Positions 23,691 through 46,379 of a stretch of 49,856 bases of DNA are shown here, piece by piece (position 1 is the stretch's first letter; every line of letters begins with the position of its first letter). This DNA is from a virus: positions 1-49,856 of the IMG/VR virus record IMGVR_UViG_3300003937_000232, one strand, 5' to 3'. The notes under the pieces are model-generated. The model was not told the DNA's origin. It was given only the letters and a program-made list of their open reading frames with translations, and ran no database searches. A program made the translations under genes and the position numbers.

Positions 23691-24995
23691 ATGGATAGTA
23701 ATTGGAATAAGCACACAGGTCTTAAAGATCCTACGTGCGCATTAAAATTTGTATGGTCATCTATAAAACTAAGCGAAGGTACATCCGCTAGTTGCCATAG
23801 AACCACATATGATAAGATACCTGAGGGAGACTTTGGTAAATTTCATCATACCCCTACTAAAATGGCTACGCGTAAACTTATGCTGGAAGGTAAATGGCCA
23901 GGTAAAGGTTGTGAGTATTGTAAAAAGATAGAAGATGCTGGTGGTATTTCAGATAGAATGGAAGCCAATAGCATGAAATCTGAACTCTTTAGTACAACTA
24001 ACTGCACAATATTAGAAATGTATTTTAGTAATGTATGTAATCAAGCATGTATATATTGCTCTGCTGAATATAGTTCTACATGGGAAGCCGAAAATAAAAA
24101 GTGGGGTTTAACACAAAATATTAATGACTATGCATTAGACTTCTTTCAAGACAAAGAGAATTTTAAAAGAATAAAAAATGAGTTCTGGGAATGGATGGAA
24201 GATAATCATAAGCCATTAGTTAAATATAATATATTAGGTGGCGAACCATTCTTTCAACCAGAGTTATTAGAGAATTTAGACTTCTTTGAATCTCACCCTT
24301 GCCCTAATTTAGAGTTAACTATATTTACTAATCTAAAATGTCCTGAACAAAGATTTCGTGATACTATGGATCATATAGAATTCTTACGTGCAATAGGTAA
24401 CCTAGGTCATATAAGAATTATTTGTTCTATTGATTGTTGGGGAGAGGCACATGAGTATACACGTTGGGGATCAAAGCTAGAAGAGTTCGATAGGAATCTT
24501 GGTATACTTGCATTAGATTATAAAGATATAGAAACAGAAATCCACATGACTATGGCCGCTACAACAATAAGGGCTATGCCAGAATTAGTAACAAGATTAA
24601 ACTATTGGAATAATCTAAGAAATCCATTAAGAGAAAAGGCACCTGAAGTAAAGTCAGGTGTGAAAGAGAATTCAAAGATAAAACCTATATACATCTCTGG
24701 TAATTTTGTTGTATGGCCAAATCATATGGCACCTGATATATTCCCAGCAGGATTCTTTGCAGATGATTTTAAAAGGTTATATGAAGAGTTAGACAAAGGT
24801 GTATGGAAATATCGTATCTATGAACTAATGAGAGGATATGAAAAGTCAATAGATAATACGCCTGTCAATTATGAGATGATTAAATTACTTAAGACTGAAT
24901 TGACAGATATAGACAGAAGGAGAGGATGCGATTGGAAGAAAACATTCCCATGGTTAAACGATTTTAATACGGATATAAATATTAATACATTATGA
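23691..24995 (+). CDS. Radical SAM enzyme of the phage 'twitch' type
   Basis: This 434-residue protein has the radical SAM cluster motif Cys116-X3-Cys120-X2-Cys123 (CNQACIYC), followed by NILGGEPFFQPELLENLDFF, the GGEP motif of the family. The N-terminal 100 residues carry additional cysteines (Cys16, 35, 74 and 77), a possible auxiliary Fe-S site as in twitch or SPASM-like enzymes. Family members carry out 5'-deoxyadenosyl-radical chemistry on peptides or small molecules. It follows the amidinotransferase and methyltransferase and immediately precedes uvsY. The ATG follows the promoter TATAAT by six bases. Confidence 0.9.
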   Translation: MDSNWNKHTGLKDPTCALKFVWSSIKLSEGTSASCHRTTYDKIPEGDFGKFHHTPTKMATRKLMLEGKWPGKGCEYCKKIEDAGGISDRMEANSMKSELFSTTNCTILEMYFSNVCNQACIYCSAEYSSTWEAENKKWGLTQNINDYALDFFQDKENFKRIKNEFWEWMEDNHKPLVKYNILGGEPFFQPELLENLDFFESHPCPNLELTIFTNLKCPEQRFRDTMDHIEFLRAIGNLGHIRIICSIDCWGEAHEYTRWGSKLEEFDRNLGILALDYKDIETEIHMTMAATTIRAMPELVTRLNYWNNLRNPLREKAPEVKSGVKENSKIKPIYISGNFVVWPNHMAPDIFPAGFFADDFKRLYEELDKGVWKYRIYELMRGYEKSIDNTPVNYEMIKLLKTELTDIDRRRGCDWKKTFPWLNDFNTDININTL

Positions 24996-34112: not shown

Positions 34113-34197
34113 GGACGGACTGGGCACTTGGGGAGCCCCGCAGATTGTAAACCTGTCGCCTCTGGCTGTAGTGGTTCGACTCCACTTCTGTCCACCA
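34113..34197 (+). tRNA. tRNA-Tyr (anticodon GTA)
   Basis: A full cloverleaf can be drawn: acceptor GGACGGA with TCTGTCC, D-stem GGGC/GCCC, an anticodon loop TTGTAAA giving anticodon GTA, a long variable arm (GCC TCT GGC) typical of tyrosine tRNAs and a T-arm AGTGG TTCGACT CCACT. A CCA end is encoded at 34195-34197. One pair at the top of the anticodon stem (A31-C39) is mismatched and G27-U43 is a wobble. It is the only tRNA seen in the window and has its own extended -10 promoter. It may support codon demand in late genes. Confidence 0.85.
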
Positions 34198-35396: not shown

Positions 35397-37541
35397 ATGA
35401 ATTTATCTGCTCAAGAATATTTAGCGAAGCTTTTAGCTAAGGAGAACTTATCAGTTCAACACGGTAACTATTCTACAGCTAGCTTCGATGTTATGAATCG
35501 TGTACTTCGTCTTCCACTTTGGAAAGACAAAGGAAAGGACGTTTATGATCTTTTAGTTGGACATGAAGTTGGTCATGCGCTTTATACTCCAGCTGATGGA
35601 TGGCATGATTCTGAAAAGAAGATTGGAAAAATTCCACGTGCTTATTTAAATATTGTTGAAGATATCCGTATTGAACGTATGATCCAAGAGACATATCCTG
35701 GAATCGTTCGTCGTTTCAAAAATGGTTATAAAAAATTATTCGATGATGATCTTTTCGGTACTAACGAGAGAGACATCAACAAAGCTGGACTTATGGACAG
35801 ACTTAACGTTAGTTCGAAAGGTCGTGGATATGTTCCAGTTAAATTTACTCCTGAAGAAACTCCTTTAGTTGAAGAAGCTATGGCGGTTAAAACTTGGGAT
35901 GACGTTTTAAAAGTTTGTAAAAAATTCTATGATTTCATAGAAGAGAACAAAGAAGAAAAAGAAGAAGAAGATGATATGGAAATGTCAGGAATGCCTGGTG
36001 AAGGTGATGACTCTCCTGAAGAATCTTCTGGTGAAACTCCTATTTCCGGTGACGAAGAAGGTGAATCTGATGACGAAGGTGATGACGGTGAATCTGATGG
36101 TGACGGTGAAGAAGAATCTAAAGACGGAGAATCTAAAAAAGAAAAAGAAGTTGCTCCTGAAGGTCATGAGACTTGGACTGAAGATACTCACAGAGAACGT
36201 GAAGAAGATCTTTTAGAAAAATCTCCTGAAAGAAAATATGAGAGAAGCGGTCAGCCAATGTATTCAAGCGGCATGAGCGAAGAGAACATGAACAAAGTTC
36301 TTTATTCGTACGACGTTTGTAAAGCATTGCGTGATGAGCGTGTCACAGAAGAAGATTCTGATGGATATTCTCCTTATGTGAGCAATGCTTGTGAGGAAGA
36401 TTGGTCAGAGACTAAAAAAACTTATAAGACTCAAGCAAATTTATTAGCTAAAGACTTTGAACGTAAGAAAGCTGCGTTTGAATATTCAAGAGCTTTGACT
36501 GCAAAGTCTGGCAAACTTGATCCTTTAAAATTACACCAATACAGAACTTCTGAGGATATCTTTTTGACTACTACTCAGTTGGCACAAGCAAAGTCACATG
36601 GAATTATATTGTTCCTTGACCTTTCTGGTTCAATGTGTGAGATCATAGAAGATGTTACTGCGCAAGCAATTACTATCGCTATGTTCTGTCGTCAAGTGAA
36701 CATTCCTTTCGAGGCATATTCATTTACTACTACTGCATACTGGAGACAAGAAGGTAAAGGTATTCGTGAAATCAAAGGTGAAGCTTCTGAACTTTCTGCT
36801 GAGAGTGTTAAAGTTGTTGAAATGTTTTCTGGTAAAATGAATAAGAAAACTTTTGATGAAGCGGCTTTTACTTCTTTCGCGATAGCTAAAGCACATTCAT
36901 ACAACAATCGTATGAAGTATCATTTGTCATCTCATTACCTTCATCCTATTGATGGTATGGGTTCAACTCCTCTTATTCAGACTGCAATGCTTGCATCTAA
37001 AATCACTAAAGCATTTACACGTAAACATGCAATACAAAACACAAACATTATGTTTTTGACTGATGGATATCCTGATGGAATCAGTGTTATTGAAAATGAA
37101 AAATCTGATGTTGAAACTTCGCGTGAAGTAATGATTAACTTTGAAGGTAAAATGATACGTGGAAACGGTGCTCGTGAGATTTATAAGGAAACTCTTATAA
37201 GACTTAAAGAATTAACTGGTGCAACTCTTATGGGTTTCCACCTTGCGTATGATGCATCTACTTTCGGACAAGGATATATGAACGTTAATGAGGATAGAGA
37301 TTTTCCTGATGTCATAAAAGATTGGAGAAAGAAGAGTTTTGCTGCTTGGAAAGATGTTGTTGGTTACGATGATTATTTCATAATTAAAATCAACAGGTCT
37401 GCAAGGTTTGACTCTGATACTTTTGAACCTAAAAAAGCTGATACTATTAATGATCTTAAACGTGAGTTCAAGAAGTTTGCGAAGACTAAAAAAGGTAACA
37501 AGCAATTAATTGCCAGGATTACTGACGCGGTTGCAGCATGA
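35397..37541 (+). CDS. CobT-like VWA protein with N-terminal HEXGH motif, partner of the AAA+ ATPase
   Basis: This 714-residue protein starts from the ATG after GGGAGGA. The N-terminal domain has LVGHEVGHALYTP with HEVGH at His56 to His60, a metalloprotease-like motif, and continues NIVEDIRIERMI. A long acidic, low-complexity linker (about residues 190-265) follows. The C-terminal domain is von Willebrand A type, with the MIDAS motif DLSGSM at Asp408, the LTDGYPDG second motif and a Thr in TPLIQTAML. CobT in cobalamin synthesis has a comparable acidic and VWA layout. MoxR-VWA pairs remodel or activate protein complexes; the phage substrate is unknown. Confidence 0.85.
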   Translation: MNLSAQEYLAKLLAKENLSVQHGNYSTASFDVMNRVLRLPLWKDKGKDVYDLLVGHEVGHALYTPADGWHDSEKKIGKIPRAYLNIVEDIRIERMIQETYPGIVRRFKNGYKKLFDDDLFGTNERDINKAGLMDRLNVSSKGRGYVPVKFTPEETPLVEEAMAVKTWDDVLKVCKKFYDFIEENKEEKEEEDDMEMSGMPGEGDDSPEESSGETPISGDEEGESDDEGDDGESDGDGEEESKDGESKKEKEVAPEGHETWTEDTHREREEDLLEKSPERKYERSGQPMYSSGMSEENMNKVLYSYDVCKALRDERVTEEDSDGYSPYVSNACEEDWSETKKTYKTQANLLAKDFERKKAAFEYSRALTAKSGKLDPLKLHQYRTSEDIFLTTTQLAQAKSHGIILFLDLSGSMCEIIEDVTAQAITIAMFCRQVNIPFEAYSFTTTAYWRQEGKGIREIKGEASELSAESVKVVEMFSGKMNKKTFDEAAFTSFAIAKAHSYNNRMKYHLSSHYLHPIDGMGSTPLIQTAMLASKITKAFTRKHAIQNTNIMFLTDGYPDGISVIENEKSDVETSREVMINFEGKMIRGNGAREIYKETLIRLKELTGATLMGFHLAYDASTFGQGYMNVNEDRDFPDVIKDWRKKSFAAWKDVVGYDDYFIIKINRSARFDSDTFEPKKADTINDLKREFKKFAKTKKGNKQLIARITDAVAA

Positions 37542-38338
37542 AGAAATTAATTTGTCTTTTTGCTCTAGCTGCTCTTAATTCTCAAGCGGATGTTGTAAAG
37601 AATTATTCTTGGCTTGGAAATGTTTATGAAGCATCATCTACTAATGTTGTAGCTAAAACGATTAGTCCATTAAGAGATGATGTTATTCAATTTGATTTGA
37701 TTAGTTCCGATTGCCTATGGGGCGTTGGCGGAGGAGGACACGCAGATGATTGTGATAAAAATTATACTGTCGATCATCCTGGAGATGTCTTCCGATCTCA
37801 GATTAGACTTGAAAAACCATTTAAACAAAATGTCGACCGAGAATTTTCTTTTAGTTTTAAAGATATAAGTGAAGACGATGGACTTGGATATAAAGCTATT
37901 GGCATTACTATCTTTGAACTCTATCCTAAATGGATAGCGTCAGATCCATTAGGACAAGGACCTACTCATCACATTTGGTATGATCCTAAATCCAAAAATA
38001 TATTCGCTGATAGTAATTGGCAAATATATAAATGCGGTGCATGTAACAATATCCCTGGACATATTTTAAGTAAGATGACAGATGGTTGGAATACATTTGT
38101 CATACAAACAAATCAAACATCAAAAGACAACGGCTATTTAAAAATTATCCATAATGGAAATGTAATAGTTGATCTTAAAGGTAAGACCTCATACGATGCA
38201 CCACAAGGATATCAAGCTTGGTGGGGAGCATACGTATGTTGTAGCTTTACAAAAAAAGGTGAACCGAACCACAGATTTCTTTTTAAAGACATACTCTCGT
38301 TTCACCAGAAACCTTATCAACCTAAAATAAGTTTATAA
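37538..38338 (+). CDS. Secreted heparin-lyase-like/concanavalin-type polysaccharide lyase
   Basis: This 266-residue protein has a signal peptide (MKKLICLFALAALNSQADVV). The mature part resembles polysaccharide lyases of the concanavalin-like heparin-lyase-I/PL20 type: DVFRSQIRLEKPF with FSFKD, a HHIWYDPKSKN segment, GWNTFVIQTNQTSKDNGYLK and NGNVIVDLKGKTSY, the typical late strands. Cysteines cluster (KCGACNN and VCCS). It is coupled by a four-base overlap with the VWA gene. Catalytic residues cannot be assigned from sequence alone; a carbohydrate-binding virion or lysis factor is possible. Confidence 0.6.
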   Translation: MKKLICLFALAALNSQADVVKNYSWLGNVYEASSTNVVAKTISPLRDDVIQFDLISSDCLWGVGGGGHADDCDKNYTVDHPGDVFRSQIRLEKPFKQNVDREFSFSFKDISEDDGLGYKAIGITIFELYPKWIASDPLGQGPTHHIWYDPKSKNIFADSNWQIYKCGACNNIPGHILSKMTDGWNTFVIQTNQTSKDNGYLKIIHNGNVIVDLKGKTSYDAPQGYQAWWGAYVCCSFTKKGEPNHRFLFKDILSFHQKPYQPKISL

Positions 38339-41637: not shown

Positions 41638-42005
41638 ATCCATTTGCATTAATCACATCAATATCAAATTCAAAGATTGATATACTAGAAAATGAGAAAG
41701 ACTATAATGCTTTTATGGTAAACCGTGGTCTATCTTACTTCCCTGACACTGTCATATACGCTAATGAAATGAACAAATTTCATCATCTGGATGGCCGCCT
41801 GCAGTTCGACTTTCTTATAAATACTATTAGAAAACGTAATCGTTTTTCCAAGTGGAATAAGTCTAATGAATCTGAGGACATTAATGCTATCAAAATATAT
41901 TATGGATACAGTAATGAAAAGGCTCACGATGTTCTTCCGCTTTTAAGTAAGGCAAATTTGAATACTATAAAGGGAAGAATATTTCATGGCGGAACACAAA
42001 GATAG
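41634..42005 (+). CDS. 62: gp62-like clamp loader small subunit
   Basis: This 123-residue protein begins MNPFALITSISNSKIDILEN and contains DYNAFMVNRGLSYFPDTVIY, then ANEMNKFHHLDGRLQFDFLI, characteristic of gp62 in T4-like marine phages (T4 gp62 187 residues, so this is short). It starts at TTG overlapping the previous stop. It partners gp44 as the clamp loader. A TATAAATACTATT sequence inside the gene is likely fortuitous. Confidence 0.9.
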   Translation: MNPFALITSISNSKIDILENEKDYNAFMVNRGLSYFPDTVIYANEMNKFHHLDGRLQFDFLINTIRKRNRFSKWNKSNESEDINAIKIYYGYSNEKAHDVLPLLSKANLNTIKGRIFHGGTQR

Positions 42006-42396
42006 TTTAGTCAATTGGACACCAGATATGATGTTAGAAGTTACTCTAGCTGAACCTGATGACTTCTTAAAAATCAGGGAAACATTAACTCGTATGGGTG
42101 TAGCATCCAAACGAGACTCTCAATTATTTCAATCATGTCATATCTTGCACAAGCAAGGTAGATATTTTATAACTCATTTTAAAGAGTTATTCTTATTAGA
42201 TGGTAAGCCATCAAACCTAACAGAGAATGATATTCACAGACGTAATACAATTGTTACGCTCATGTCTGATTGGGGATTATTAGAGACTGTTAAACCTATT
42301 GGAGAAACTGCTCCATTAAACCAAATTAAAATTATATCGCATAAAGAAAAAGGCGATTGGGAATTATGTCCCAAATACAATATAGGTATTAAATGA
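41986..42396 (+). CDS. regA: RegA translational repressor
   Basis: This 136-residue RegA (T4: 122) has MMLEVTLAEPDDFLKIRETL at the start, then SCHILHKQGRYFITHFKELF with the conserved His and Gly, and HRRNTIVTLMSDWGL. RegA represses translation of early phage mRNAs by binding near the start codon. The gene overlaps gp62 by 20 bases. In T4 regA lies between gp62 and gp43; here five accessory genes separate it from gp43. Confidence 0.95.
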   Translation: MAEHKDSLVNWTPDMMLEVTLAEPDDFLKIRETLTRMGVASKRDSQLFQSCHILHKQGRYFITHFKELFLLDGKPSNLTENDIHRRNTIVTLMSDWGLLETVKPIGETAPLNQIKIISHKEKGDWELCPKYNIGIK

Positions 42397-42420: not shown

Positions 42421-43842
42421 ATGATTACACATTTATTATTAGGGACCATGTTTGGTCTCGTCATTGGATTATTACCCGCTGCTGGGGCCACGACAGGTCT
42501 TGTCATTCTATTTGGCTTCATGCATCTCTTCTCAGATCCTTATCTTGGCGTTGTCTTTTGTATGGCAGTAGTCGCAGCATCCACTACGGGAGACACATAC
42601 TCAGGTGTTTTATTAGGAATTCCTGGTGCAAACTCATCCGCTGCTACAATGATAGACGGACATCCATTAGCTAAACAGGGTAAAGCAACATATGCTTTAA
42701 CTGCAGCGATCACAACAAGTACAGTCAATGGTCTCTTTTGGGGAACACTTACGTTTGCTTTACTCCCTTGGTATATGAATCTTATGATGATCTTTGGAGT
42801 ACCTGAACTATGGGCATTTACTATGTTAGCACTTGCTTGTGTAGGATTTGTTAGTAATAGATTTTGGATAAGAAGTATTATTGCTATTATTATTGGAACA
42901 TTACTTGGAATGATAGGAGTAGATCCTATTACAAATGCTGATCGTTGGACATTTGGTTGGGATTACTTAGCCGATGGTATTCAAATTATGCCAATGGTTG
43001 CTGGTCTATTTGCCATACCCGAAATATTAGATGGATTAAAACAAGGCAGTGCAACAACACAGCCTCATGATACATCAGGTCAAACATGGGATGGAATTAA
43101 AGCAACATGGAAATATAAATGGGATGCATTAAGAGGTGGAGCAATAGGTGCATTTATAGGATTCTTGCCTGGCATTGGTGGTGGTGTTGCTGATTGGATG
43201 GCATACGGTTCGACATTAGCCACACATCCGAATGAGGAATTTGGTAACGGTAATATAAGAGGAGTGATTGGACCAGAAGGATCTAATAATGCTCAGAAGG
43301 CAACGAGTATGATCCCTACCGTATTGTTTGGTATTCCTGGTGCTTCCTTTGCTGCAGTACTCATGGCATTATTTATGTACTTAGGATTTGAATTAGGTAC
43401 ACCTGATCTGGCGTATGACACAAAATTTTTTAGTAGCCTTACATATGGATTTATGTGGGGTACGGTATTAGTTGCTGCAATATGTATTGCCTTAAATAAA
43501 TATATCTGTAGGATATCTTACGTACCGTATAAATATTATTTTCCATTGCTTGTAGGATTTGTTGTTTGGGCATGTGCTCAATACACAGGCGGATGGGAAG
43601 ATTATATGATCCTTGCAATATGCTCTGTTCTGGGCGTTGTTGGTAAGGCATATAAATATAGTAGACCAGCCATGTTAATGGCGTTTATATTAAGTTATAA
43701 GGTTGAAACGTTGACTATTCAAATGAATGCCCTATACACGTGGGATACTCTAATGACTAGGCCAATATTTTTAGGATTAATAATATGTATTGTATTATTA
43801 TTTGTATTATCATTAAAGAAAAATAAACTGGAGTATGCATGA
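42421..43842 (+). CDS. TctA-like tripartite tricarboxylate transporter, large membrane subunit
   Basis: This 473-residue polytopic membrane protein has the TctA family features: LGTMFGLVIGLLPAAGATTG, a DTYSGVLLGIPGANSSAATM segment, MIDGHPLAKQGKATYALTAA and the second LPG repeat GFLPGIGGGVADWMAYGS, followed by IGPEGSNNAQKATSMIPTVL and FGIPGASFAAVLMAL. About 10-12 transmembrane helices. TctA carries carboxylate substrates with TctB and a periplasmic TctC. The next gene encodes a TctC-like protein and shares the last four bases. I see no TctB. It is slightly shorter at the N-terminus than typical bacterial TctA (about 500). Confidence 0.88.
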   Translation: MITHLLLGTMFGLVIGLLPAAGATTGLVILFGFMHLFSDPYLGVVFCMAVVAASTTGDTYSGVLLGIPGANSSAATMIDGHPLAKQGKATYALTAAITTSTVNGLFWGTLTFALLPWYMNLMMIFGVPELWAFTMLALACVGFVSNRFWIRSIIAIIIGTLLGMIGVDPITNADRWTFGWDYLADGIQIMPMVAGLFAIPEILDGLKQGSATTQPHDTSGQTWDGIKATWKYKWDALRGGAIGAFIGFLPGIGGGVADWMAYGSTLATHPNEEFGNGNIRGVIGPEGSNNAQKATSMIPTVLFGIPGASFAAVLMALFMYLGFELGTPDLAYDTKFFSSLTYGFMWGTVLVAAICIALNKYICRISYVPYKYYFPLLVGFVVWACAQYTGGWEDYMILAICSVLGVVGKAYKYSRPAMLMAFILSYKVETLTIQMNALYTWDTLMTRPIFLGLIICIVLLFVLSLKKNKLEYA

Positions 43843-44876
43843 AAAAATTACTAACACTTTGCCTTATGGCATTCACAACATCAGCAATCGCTGACTACAC
43901 ATTTGTTGTGCCACAGAAACCTGGCGGTGGAACAAGTGTATGGGCACAAATTATTGCTGAACAACTTGTACCTTTCTTAGGAGAGAACATAGTTATATTA
44001 CATCAGCCTGGAGCAAGAGACATTCCTGGCTTTAACACTTGGCATAACGATCTGAGAGATAATGACAAAATCATTATGGTATCTCATGGTGGTAATGGTG
44101 TTGCATTCCTACAAGAGAATGTAGACTATAACTATGGTGACTATGAATCAATTGGCCTTATGAATTTAAATATTATTGCTGGTAAACGTATTGGTGCTGA
44201 TATGGAATTCCCTAAATTTGCTGCGGGATCTGGTCAAACACCAGAAGCTTGGGCAATGACCATGTTAATATGTGGTCCAGACAAGACTATGGCATTCTAT
44301 GCTGCCTGCTTTAAAGAGCATGTAACTTGGGTAAGCGGTATGTCTGGTGGAGAACGTAGACTTGCATTTAAACGTGGAGAGTTAACTGGTACAAGAGAGA
44401 ATCCAGCGGCATATAAGAAACACGTGGCTGGAGATGACAACGCTGAAATGTGGTTTCATCATGGTATACTTCAAGCAGACGGAAGTCATGCCGATGATCC
44501 TAACCACCCAGGATTTCAATTCGAAATATTATTTGAAGAGAAATATGGTGTAGCACCTTCTGGAAAATTTTATGATGCTTATAAACTTGTGAAGTCATTT
44601 CGTGATGGTATGCAAAAAGCATTATGGGTAAACAAAGGTAATCCAAACGCATTTGAATTACAAAATGCATTAACTAAAATGAGTCAAGATCCTGATGCTG
44701 TTGCAGCTATTCAAAAGAAGGTTGGTCAATATGACTGGCTTATCGGAGAAGCTGGCAATAACCATCGTGATACGCTTATGACATTTATTACTGCTGAAGC
44801 TTTACAAAATCTTGTATGGTTTAATACAGAAGCTTTAGGTTTAGCAAGTGTATATAAGGAAGACTTAGTGAAGTGA
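43839..44876 (+). CDS. TctC/Bug-like periplasmic solute-binding protein
   Basis: This 345-residue protein has a clear signal peptide (MKKLLTLCLMAFTTSAIADY). The mature part opens with TFVVPQKPGGGTSVWAQIIA, the hallmark start of TctC/Bug receptors, and LGENIVILHQPGARDIPG. It retains the general two-lobe spacing, but the middle (DKTMAFYAACFKEHVTWVSG) and C-terminal parts differ from typical family members. It would bind a carboxylate substrate for the TctA encoded just upstream. The four-base overlap supports coupled expression. Confidence 0.78.
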   Translation: MKKLLTLCLMAFTTSAIADYTFVVPQKPGGGTSVWAQIIAEQLVPFLGENIVILHQPGARDIPGFNTWHNDLRDNDKIIMVSHGGNGVAFLQENVDYNYGDYESIGLMNLNIIAGKRIGADMEFPKFAAGSGQTPEAWAMTMLICGPDKTMAFYAACFKEHVTWVSGMSGGERRLAFKRGELTGTRENPAAYKKHVAGDDNAEMWFHHGILQADGSHADDPNHPGFQFEILFEEKYGVAPSGKFYDAYKLVKSFRDGMQKALWVNKGNPNAFELQNALTKMSQDPDAVAAIQKKVGQYDWLIGEAGNNHRDTLMTFITAEALQNLVWFNTEALGLASVYKEDLVK

Positions 44877-45454
44877 AGAATTGGATCTTTGTCACTGGTG
44901 CTCCAGGATCACGTTGGAGTGGTGTCGGTCAAGAAATAAGATGGACTAACCACGCTGATATTACTGATTGTACACCAGATAAAGAATACAAACATGGGCA
45001 ATTCAGTGGTCATAAAGGAAACTATTATGGCCCTGGAATGCTTAATGGAACATGGCTAGATAAAGAATTAGGTACAAAAGAGCAATGGATTGATGAGATA
45101 AATAATAGTTACAAGGGCCCTGTAGATCAGGTCAAAGTAATTATGTCTCATCACTTTGCATATTATCTAGAAGAGATAATGGAAGAATTTCCAGAGAGTC
45201 AGATCATTGCGTGTGTACGTGATTGTGATGACTGTATGGAATGGTGGAAGAAAGCTGGTGGATGGGATATAACCTATCCTAGTTATGAATGGTATAGAGA
45301 TGATATCAAAATGAAACATGAAATATACTATCAGAACAAAGCTATTCGCCAATGGGCTCATAAACACTCTGTAAAAAAGAGTGAAGCATTAGCCCAAAGG
45401 TTTAATAAATTTAAACCAATAGTCGAAGACCTAAAGGTTTTCGTGTATAAATAG
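44873..45454 (+). CDS. Putative P-loop sulfotransferase-like protein
   Basis: This 193-residue protein starts at GTG overlapping the TctC stop. The N-terminus WIFVTGAPGSRWSGVGQEIR has a P-loop-like Gly-rich turn, and the middle segment (VKVIMSHHFAYYLEEIMEEF, then PESQIIACVRDCDDCMEWW) resembles the sulfotransferase-like fold of phage proteins. The ending EALAQRFNKFKPIVEDLK is helical. It is followed by a terminator, ending the transporter transcript. Function unproven; a nucleotide-dependent transferase is possible. Confidence 0.45.
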   Translation: MKNWIFVTGAPGSRWSGVGQEIRWTNHADITDCTPDKEYKHGQFSGHKGNYYGPGMLNGTWLDKELGTKEQWIDEINNSYKGPVDQVKVIMSHHFAYYLEEIMEEFPESQIIACVRDCDDCMEWWKKAGGWDITYPSYEWYRDDIKMKHEIYYQNKAIRQWAHKHSVKKSEALAQRFNKFKPIVEDLKVFVYK

Positions 45455-45512: not shown

Positions 45513-45971
45513 ATGACAAACTTAGCATTTACAAACTTCCCGAGGGATACATTCCTGGGATTTGATTCACTCTTTAACACATTACAAAATACACAAATCC
45601 ATGACGCGAGAGGCGCCGGATATCCCCCGTATAATGTAATCAAAAGAGATGATGGTCACTTTTTAATTGAAATCGCTGTCGCAGGATTTAATAAGAAAGA
45701 CATTAATCTGACCCTTGAAAAAGGTGTTCTGACAATCACTGGTAAGAAAGTTACTGGTGCAGATACAAGAGACTATGCACATCGTGGCATTTCTCAAAGG
45801 GCGTTTGAGCGTTCATTCACAATAGCCGAGACAATTAAGGTTGTCGGAGCTGATATTGTAGATGGAATGCTTGTTGTAATTCTGGAGAACGATATTCCAG
45901 AAGAGGACAAGCCTCAAACTATTAATTTAGGTGACCTGCCTAAGCACGCTAAAAAGCTGTTGCTAGGCTAA
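45513..45971 (+). CDS. hsp20: Hsp20/alpha-crystallin small heat-shock protein
   Basis: This 152-residue small heat-shock protein has the N-terminal arm FPRDTFLGFDSLFNTLQNTQ, the alpha-crystallin domain with FLIEIAVAGFNKKDINLTLE and GVLTITGKKV, then AHRGISQRAFERSFTIAETI and the end strand DGMLVVILENDIPEEDKPQT. Such holdases are common in marine T4-like phages and may aid virion or polymerase folding. It has the AGGAGG ribosome site. iscU follows after 18 bases. Confidence 0.96.
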   Translation: MTNLAFTNFPRDTFLGFDSLFNTLQNTQIHDARGAGYPPYNVIKRDDGHFLIEIAVAGFNKKDINLTLEKGVLTITGKKVTGADTRDYAHRGISQRAFERSFTIAETIKVVGADIVDGMLVVILENDIPEEDKPQTINLGDLPKHAKKLLLG

Positions 45972-45989: not shown

Positions 45990-46379
45990 ATGGCATATTC
46001 AGATCAAGTTTTAGACCACTATAATAATCCACGCAATGTGGGTAAGATGGATATAAATGACCCGAATGTCGGGACTGGTATGGTAGGTGCTCCTTCTTGT
46101 GGCGACGTTATGAAGCTACAAATTAGAGTAGAAGAAGGCATTATTGAAGATGCAAAATTCAAGGCATATGGATGTGGTTCTGCAATTGCTAGTTCTAGCA
46201 TGGTTACAGAGTTGCTCAAAGGTATGTCGTTAGATGAGGCAAAAGATATTAAAAATACTTCTATCGTAGAAGCTCTTAGTTTGCCTCCAGTTAAGATACA
46301 CTGCTCAGTCTTAGCTGAAGATTCAATTAAAGCAGCAGTCAAAGATTATCAAGGCAAACAACCAAAACCACATAGGTAA
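45990..46379 (+). CDS. iscU: IscU-type Fe-S cluster scaffold
   Basis: This 129-residue protein (Escherichia coli IscU: 128) has all three cluster cysteines: Cys37 in GAPSCGDVMKLQI (with Asp39), Cys62 in FKAYGCGSAIASSS and Cys105 in KIHCSVLAEDSIKAA. The LPPVK motif that HscA recognises is kept (LPPVK at 98-102). No IscS, HscA/HscB or IscR is visible, so the phage would feed an existing host pathway. It sits between hsp20 and an LSm-like gene. Confidence 0.95.
   Translation: MAYSDQVLDHYNNPRNVGKMDINDPNVGTGMVGAPSCGDVMKLQIRVEEGIIEDAKFKAYGCGSAIASSSMVTELLKGMSLDEAKDIKNTSIVEALSLPPVKIHCSVLAEDSIKAAVKDYQGKQPKPHR

Follow-up and report, generated by a model that had tools for sequence, protein, structure and literature searches.

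Described relatives of the locus reported here include the citrate systems TctCBA of Salmonella and SPO0184–0186 of Ruegeria pomeroyi (PMC10130141), with which the viral genes have the TctA and TctC families in common, but the virus has no TctB. The viral TctA also branches apart from the canonical TctAs with which it was compared. In a review of the tripartite tricarboxylate transporters (TTT), TctB is described as a part of unknown function and rare TctAB fusions are noted; a natural TctB-less TctA–TctC pair would bear directly on whether this family can transport without TctB, a point that the review leaves undecided (PMC5812351). More closely related are bacterial systems in which TctC accompanies a fused TctAB (Pelagibacterales and other Proteobacteria; L203–L218). 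These share with the virus a TctA subclade, in the position of sister, as well as a long TctC subgroup of about 350 aa and adjacent A and C genes. The fused proteins carry TctB at the C terminus of TctA and have an N-terminal extension, and their genes are mostly ordered C then AB with enzyme genes as neighbours, whereas the virus has A then C, no TctB and ~35 % identity to them. We know of no TctB-less transporter of this kind that has been shown to work in bacteria.

In viruses, related genes have been mentioned in passing. A tctA domain match was reported on SUP05-associated viral contigs as an auxiliary metabolic gene of unknown role (PMC4164917), and a 'tricarboxylate transport' gene was among the genes listed for a myovirus contig from an OMZ, next to nitrogen genes (PMC8115048); the passages concerned do not describe a TctC partner, a lineage, the absence of TctB or how the genes are distributed. 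PBP2_Bug_TTT proteins from uncultured Caudovirales phages in BFVD (e.g. A0A6J5T247) have the same TctC fold as the protein reported here at 12–15 % identity, and no published function was found for them. The main texts of the pelagimyophage and methylophage genome papers make no mention of tctAC. No description of a viral TctA–TctC lineage without TctB was found in the openly accessible article texts searched, in agreement with the original prediction, which knew of no described phage system of this kind.

The window, meaning the whole 49,856-base virus record analysed, was assigned to the T4 type by its structural and replication genes. Tail sheath, portal, scaffold, major head protein, helicase and an SbcC-like subunit were all found in T4-like form, together with a clamp loader, regA, Hsp20, a NifU-like protein and a gp43-type polymerase. 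The nearest annotated match of the polymerase was that of the Kyanoviridae phage C48C1 (48 % identity), in which the clamp loader, regA, hsp20 and polymerase genes follow one another as they do in the window, without the tct genes. No Rfam elements were found in the window, and promoter-like sites there were not above chance level.

All genes of the locus itself lie on the plus strand. A tctA-like permease gene at 42421..43842 (473 aa, core TctA domain only) is followed by a tctC-like periplasmic binding protein gene at 43839..44876 (345 aa, putative signal peptide), and the tctA stop and tctC start share a four-base ATGA at 43839..43842, as read from the sequence. To the left is the translational repressor gene regA (41986..42396; PF01818, 141 bits; phrog_242) and to the right the small heat-shock protein gene hsp20 (45513..45971; PF00011; phrog_432), so that both the overlap and the placement between these two genes were as originally described, with each flank confirmed by Pfam. 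The end of tctC shares a GTGA with a sulfotransferase-like gene (44873..45454, 193 aa; Sulfotransfer_3, E 2.8e-4, sub-threshold), homologues of which occur near tctAC in many viral loci, in some on the opposite strand. A gene for a NifU-like Fe-S scaffold protein (45990–46379; PF01592, 171 bits) adjoins hsp20 in this phage group.

The claim of a TctA-type permease was confirmed by a match to PF01970 at 319.6 bits (cut-off 28.9), in which residues 5–419 covered positions 4–422 of the 423-position profile. The viral TctA lacks the N-terminal extension of 15–46 residues that is present in 31/31 cellular TctAs compared. The glycine-rich TctA motif G-x3-G-x3-G-x2-P-G-x-G is found in TM1 and TM7 (PMC5812351). 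Its TM7 copy was intact, with G243, G247, P250, G251 and G253 present in at least 87 of 90 viral TctAs. In TM1, residues G8, G12, G16, P19 and G22 were kept, and the glycine following the proline, invariant among the 31 cellular proteins, was replaced by A, S or V in 73 viral sequences and retained in 15, a partial departure from the motif at a position that is not marked as fully conserved in the review (PMC5812351). Other positions that are near-invariant in cellular TctAs were altered across the viral clade (G103N, G295T, S308A, L373Y and K151R). On the basis of these residue changes, the substrate, the ion coupling or even the direction of transport may differ in the viral form.

The TctC-like protein of the window matched no Pfam family, including PF03401, and no PHROG family; PF03401 likewise missed a TctC from the sister group that is plainly cellular. 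NCBIfam matches to short-chain dehydrogenases were far below cut-off and were discarded as noise. An AlphaFold model based on an alignment of 67 viral relatives had a mean pLDDT of 93 and a pTM of 0.89 (a model with only 9 close sequences, at pLDDT 47, was too poor for use), and it displayed the two-domain Venus-flytrap fold of the TctC/Bug type. Its best 17 PDB fold matches were all TctC/Bug proteins (E 7e-10 to 2.5e-7), with Polaromonas TctC, malate-bound MatC, TphC, Bug27, BugD, a terephthalate-binding protein and oxoadipate-bound Rpa4515 among the fold matches. By hhalign, a viral TctC profile aligned with a profile of 14 cellular TctCs over 304 columns (E 4.9e-35, 99.9 %); this cellular profile in turn reached E values as low as 2.5e-13 against TctC/Bug proteins of solved structure, and direct matches of the viral profile to Bug proteins were weak yet consistent. 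By fold and by profile–profile comparison, the assignment holds without support from Pfam, and the same two lines of evidence exclude an unrelated secreted protein.

The N terminus of the viral TctC, MKKLLTLCLMAFTTSAIA-D, resembles a signal peptide when read by eye. Of the original description of a TctC-type protein with a signal peptide, the type was thus borne out by fold and profile and not by Pfam, and the signal peptide is a by-eye reading. Profile searches against the three Tct families similarly returned TctA, no TctB and, by Pfam, no TctC. The best matches of the two proteins were not to unrelated families, and by domain and by fold, respectively, the viral TctA and TctC belong to known kinds. 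The near-universal TctC loop motif P-F-x-A-G-G-x-x-D (PMC5812351) was partly kept in the viral proteins, with the proline and glycines mostly retained, F replaced by Q, and D replaced by S or T in 66/66 scored sequences. Given this changed loop, the viral substrate may differ.

As the original prediction had indicated, no TctB was visible. None was detected by Pfam in the window or in 23 related viral records of up to 328 kb, and none was detected in 15 viral records, the window and 14 of those 23, by a custom profile of fused and free TctB that recovered TctB in 5/5 cellular controls. The 49.9-kb window record is a fragment, and its much longer viral relatives were also without TctB. In alignment with cellular TctA and TctAB proteins, the viral TctA ended at the point where the TctB domain begins in the fused forms, which rules out the earlier suggestion of a fused small subunit in the virus. 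The alternative suggestion of a reduced form fits best: since the nearest cellular relatives have TctB fused to TctA, the viral form looks like the product of TctB-domain loss.

Small membrane proteins of two families were encoded downstream of tctC in some of the viruses. Among 70 distinct loci that either gave a match or extended far enough past tctC to be judged, DUF6552 (PF20189) was present in 20 and a 117-aa family in nine, never both, and often within a few bases of tctC; the remaining 41 loci, including most close kin of the window, had neither, and neither was found in the window. DUF6552 lies near viral tctC at L138:4192–4413 and at 25 further viral loci. The second family is a new one of multi-helix membrane proteins of 117–119 aa (L034:4698–5051, L083:8418–8777, L041:7779–8132 and kin), for which searches of Pfam and PHROG gave no Pfam match and no significant PHROG match. 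In cells, DUF6552 was over the cut-off in 9/299 genomes of the phylum and the genes examined were not near TctA or TctC, which led us to reject it as a general TctB substitute. The DUF6552 and 117-aa proteins are candidates for a replacement part and nothing further.

Three scans of viral contigs yielded 90 distinct complete A+C pairs, which shows that the pair is not peculiar to one phage. The order was A then C with the genes at most 60 nt apart in 72 of these, longer gaps or inserted genes were seen in 16 and C preceded A in two. The four-base overlap of the window recurred in 20/90 pairs, although start codons were set automatically, and for pairs other than that of the window an overlap of a few bases is therefore an approximate value. 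The regA–tct–hsp20 site of the window was common to many pairs and others were sited elsewhere, as in L034, where the pair is upstream of gp32-like and RecA-type genes. Chance or contamination as the source of the locus was ruled out by the dozens of independent contigs that carry it with viral flanks. Among the 50,697 phage records of INPHARED the pair was absent except for seven TctA tblastn matches; these had 27–31 % identity and look like bacterial DNA in phage records. The pair corresponds to no PHROG family.

Median dN/dS was 0.115 for viral TctA and 0.187 for viral TctC, indicating purifying selection on both. tctAC has the features of an auxiliary metabolic gene set, being of cellular type, flanked by viral genes (regA and hsp20), accompanied by T4-like structural genes and having dN/dS values far below 1. 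Distances for TctA and TctC among the viruses were moderately correlated (Spearman 0.50). Relative to the window, L013/L097 and L014 were 86–87 % identical in TctA (87 % for L014) and 96 % in regA, against 58 % in TctC, and the reverse pattern was seen in other viral pairs. The occurrence of near-identical TctA with very different TctC, and the reverse, suggests that viruses exchange these parts, and among these kin of the window the binding protein has likely been swapped, judging from the uneven identities.

In a maximum-likelihood tree, 37 viral TctAs grouped together as a single clade (100/100); the fused TctAB proteins were its sister group and canonical TctA lay outside, with a long viral stem that makes the exact join less sure and with a warning from the tree programme of long branches meeting. 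The comparison with cellular copies, proposed earlier for SAR11 and other marine ones, placed the viral TctAs in a clade of their own. The cellular search covered 247 genomes of the order Pelagibacterales and 399 of its phylum. The best cellular TctA matches were proteins of 650–700 residues with 33–36 % identity and with a TctB-like domain after TctA, and the best non-viral TctC matches in the Pelagibacterales (G008, G033, G075, G089, G098, G122 and G145) were co-located with fused TctAB genes. The viral TctA and TctC thus lead independently to the same cellular operons as their best non-viral relatives in this order. By these sequence comparisons, the viral lineage is descended from the same stock as the cellular systems of TctC and fused TctAB.

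One match was found among cellular genome contigs, in a 'Candidatus Pelagibacter' MAG (L025, CAJQJC010000036.1). This contig carries a viral-type tctA–tctC along with sulfotransferase-like and methyltransferase-like genes and is probably viral DNA that was binned with the MAG. A recent acquisition from any sequenced SAR11 species was rejected, as L025 looks viral and the true Pelagibacterales homologues are ~35 % identical; that the pair is widespread in marine T4-like viruses as a virus-only lineage likewise argues against a recent pick-up from a SAR11 host. Many of the cellular sister systems adjoin PrpF-family genes, mostly 4-oxalomesaconate tautomerase by NCBIfam, and some in the Pelagibacterales sit beside two aconitases. 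Others have different neighbours; in L204, for instance, there is a ComA-type gene, and L213 has a two-component system. By association with the PrpF and aconitase genes, the ancestral system probably carried a tricarboxylate resembling aconitate or oxalomesaconate.

The interpretation that we favour, with a probability of about 0.7, is that tctAC encodes a phage-borne, reduced two-part relative of the TTT systems, a carboxylate importer of a virus-only lineage that keeps A and C together without TctB. The most likely mode of working, as predicted from sequence, is ordinary binding-protein-dependent, ion-coupled import with fewer parts. The Sec system of the host would carry the viral TctC to the periplasm, where the protein would bind in its cleft an anionic organic acid, with a tri- or dicarboxylate similar to aconitate, citrate or oxalomesaconate as the likeliest candidate. 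The loaded protein would then dock on TctA, which would import the acid by Na+ or H+ symport, and the infected cell would thereby have more carbon and more TCA intermediates at its disposal for replicating the phage. The role of TctB may be unnecessary, or may be filled by the TctB of the host or, in some relatives, by the DUF6552 or 117-aa membrane protein. Uptake of organic acids during infection, as originally proposed, is plausible; citrate specifically is not supported, as the neighbours of the cellular relatives point to aconitate- or oxalomesaconate-like acids and the Asp of the viral binding loop is changed. The pair was not filed as a member of the TTT family (TC 2.A.80), because TctB was sought and not found, and it most likely works like one. 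More tentatively, at somewhat below even odds, marine T4-like viruses may own an independent TTT branch that imports with two parts and no TctB, or with a viral protein unrelated to TctB, such as DUF6552, as the third, and in which the loop of the binding protein has been re-tuned away from citrate. If phages do encode binding-protein-dependent uptake of organic acids, they would reprogram which of these dissolved acids are taken up by infected marine cells.

Two other readings, both unlikely, retain a third component. In one, the viral TctA–TctC pairs with the TctB, or with the whole TctAB, of the host and retargets the host transporter to a substrate chosen by the phage. In its favour, a TctA homologue was found in 110 of the 247 Pelagibacterales genomes searched and the MAG containing the viral copy has a TctC–TctB–TctA run, and the partial swapping of TctC and TctA among viruses indicates that the parts are modular. 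However, the nearest cellular forms, at ~35 % identity to the viral TctA, have their TctB fused and thus not free for sharing. In the other, DUF6552 or the 117-aa protein replaces TctB as a non-homologous third part, which in the group of the window would be encoded in the unsequenced remainder of the genome. The mutually exclusive placement of the two downstream of TctC is consistent with this, but most loci have neither, the DUF6552 genes examined in cells lie away from those for TctA and TctC, and DUF6552 is far shorter than TctB.

It is improbable that the transporter instead serves a neighbouring enzyme cassette, for example by supplying 2-oxoglutarate or a similar acid to the 2OG-Fe(II) oxygenases of relatives. 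Bug/TctC proteins, among them the fold matches, do bind dicarboxylates and oxoacids, and a 2OG-Fe(II) oxygenase was identified by Pfam downstream in L019. Proteins with an HxD...H-like motif, recognized by eye, are also encoded nearby: in L013 and L019 they occupy the interval that separates tctC from the sulfotransferase-like gene, and in L025 the position immediately 3' of the latter. However, these match no Pfam family, no such protein is encoded in the tctAC operon of the window, and cells normally contain plenty of 2-oxoglutarate. Least probable of all is a module for membrane sensing, export or exclusion, built on the TctA/TctC scaffold and importing no nutrients. The lineage-specific changes at four of the cell-invariant TctA positions (all those given above except K151R) and in the TctC loop motif would fit such a module, yet an importer would require just what is seen here, namely that both genes are under strong purifying selection and that the pairing with a Venus-flytrap binding protein is conserved.

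Elsewhere in the window, a single tRNA was detected, tRNA-Tyr (gta) at 34113–34197, and a Radical SAM-domain protein with a PHROG match is encoded beside the helicase region (23691–24995). A secreted-looking protein at 37538–38338 matched Polysacc_lyase (PF14099) weakly but above the cut-off. At the equivalent site, L013 and L019 encode a protein of 230–233 aa with a signal-peptide-like start.
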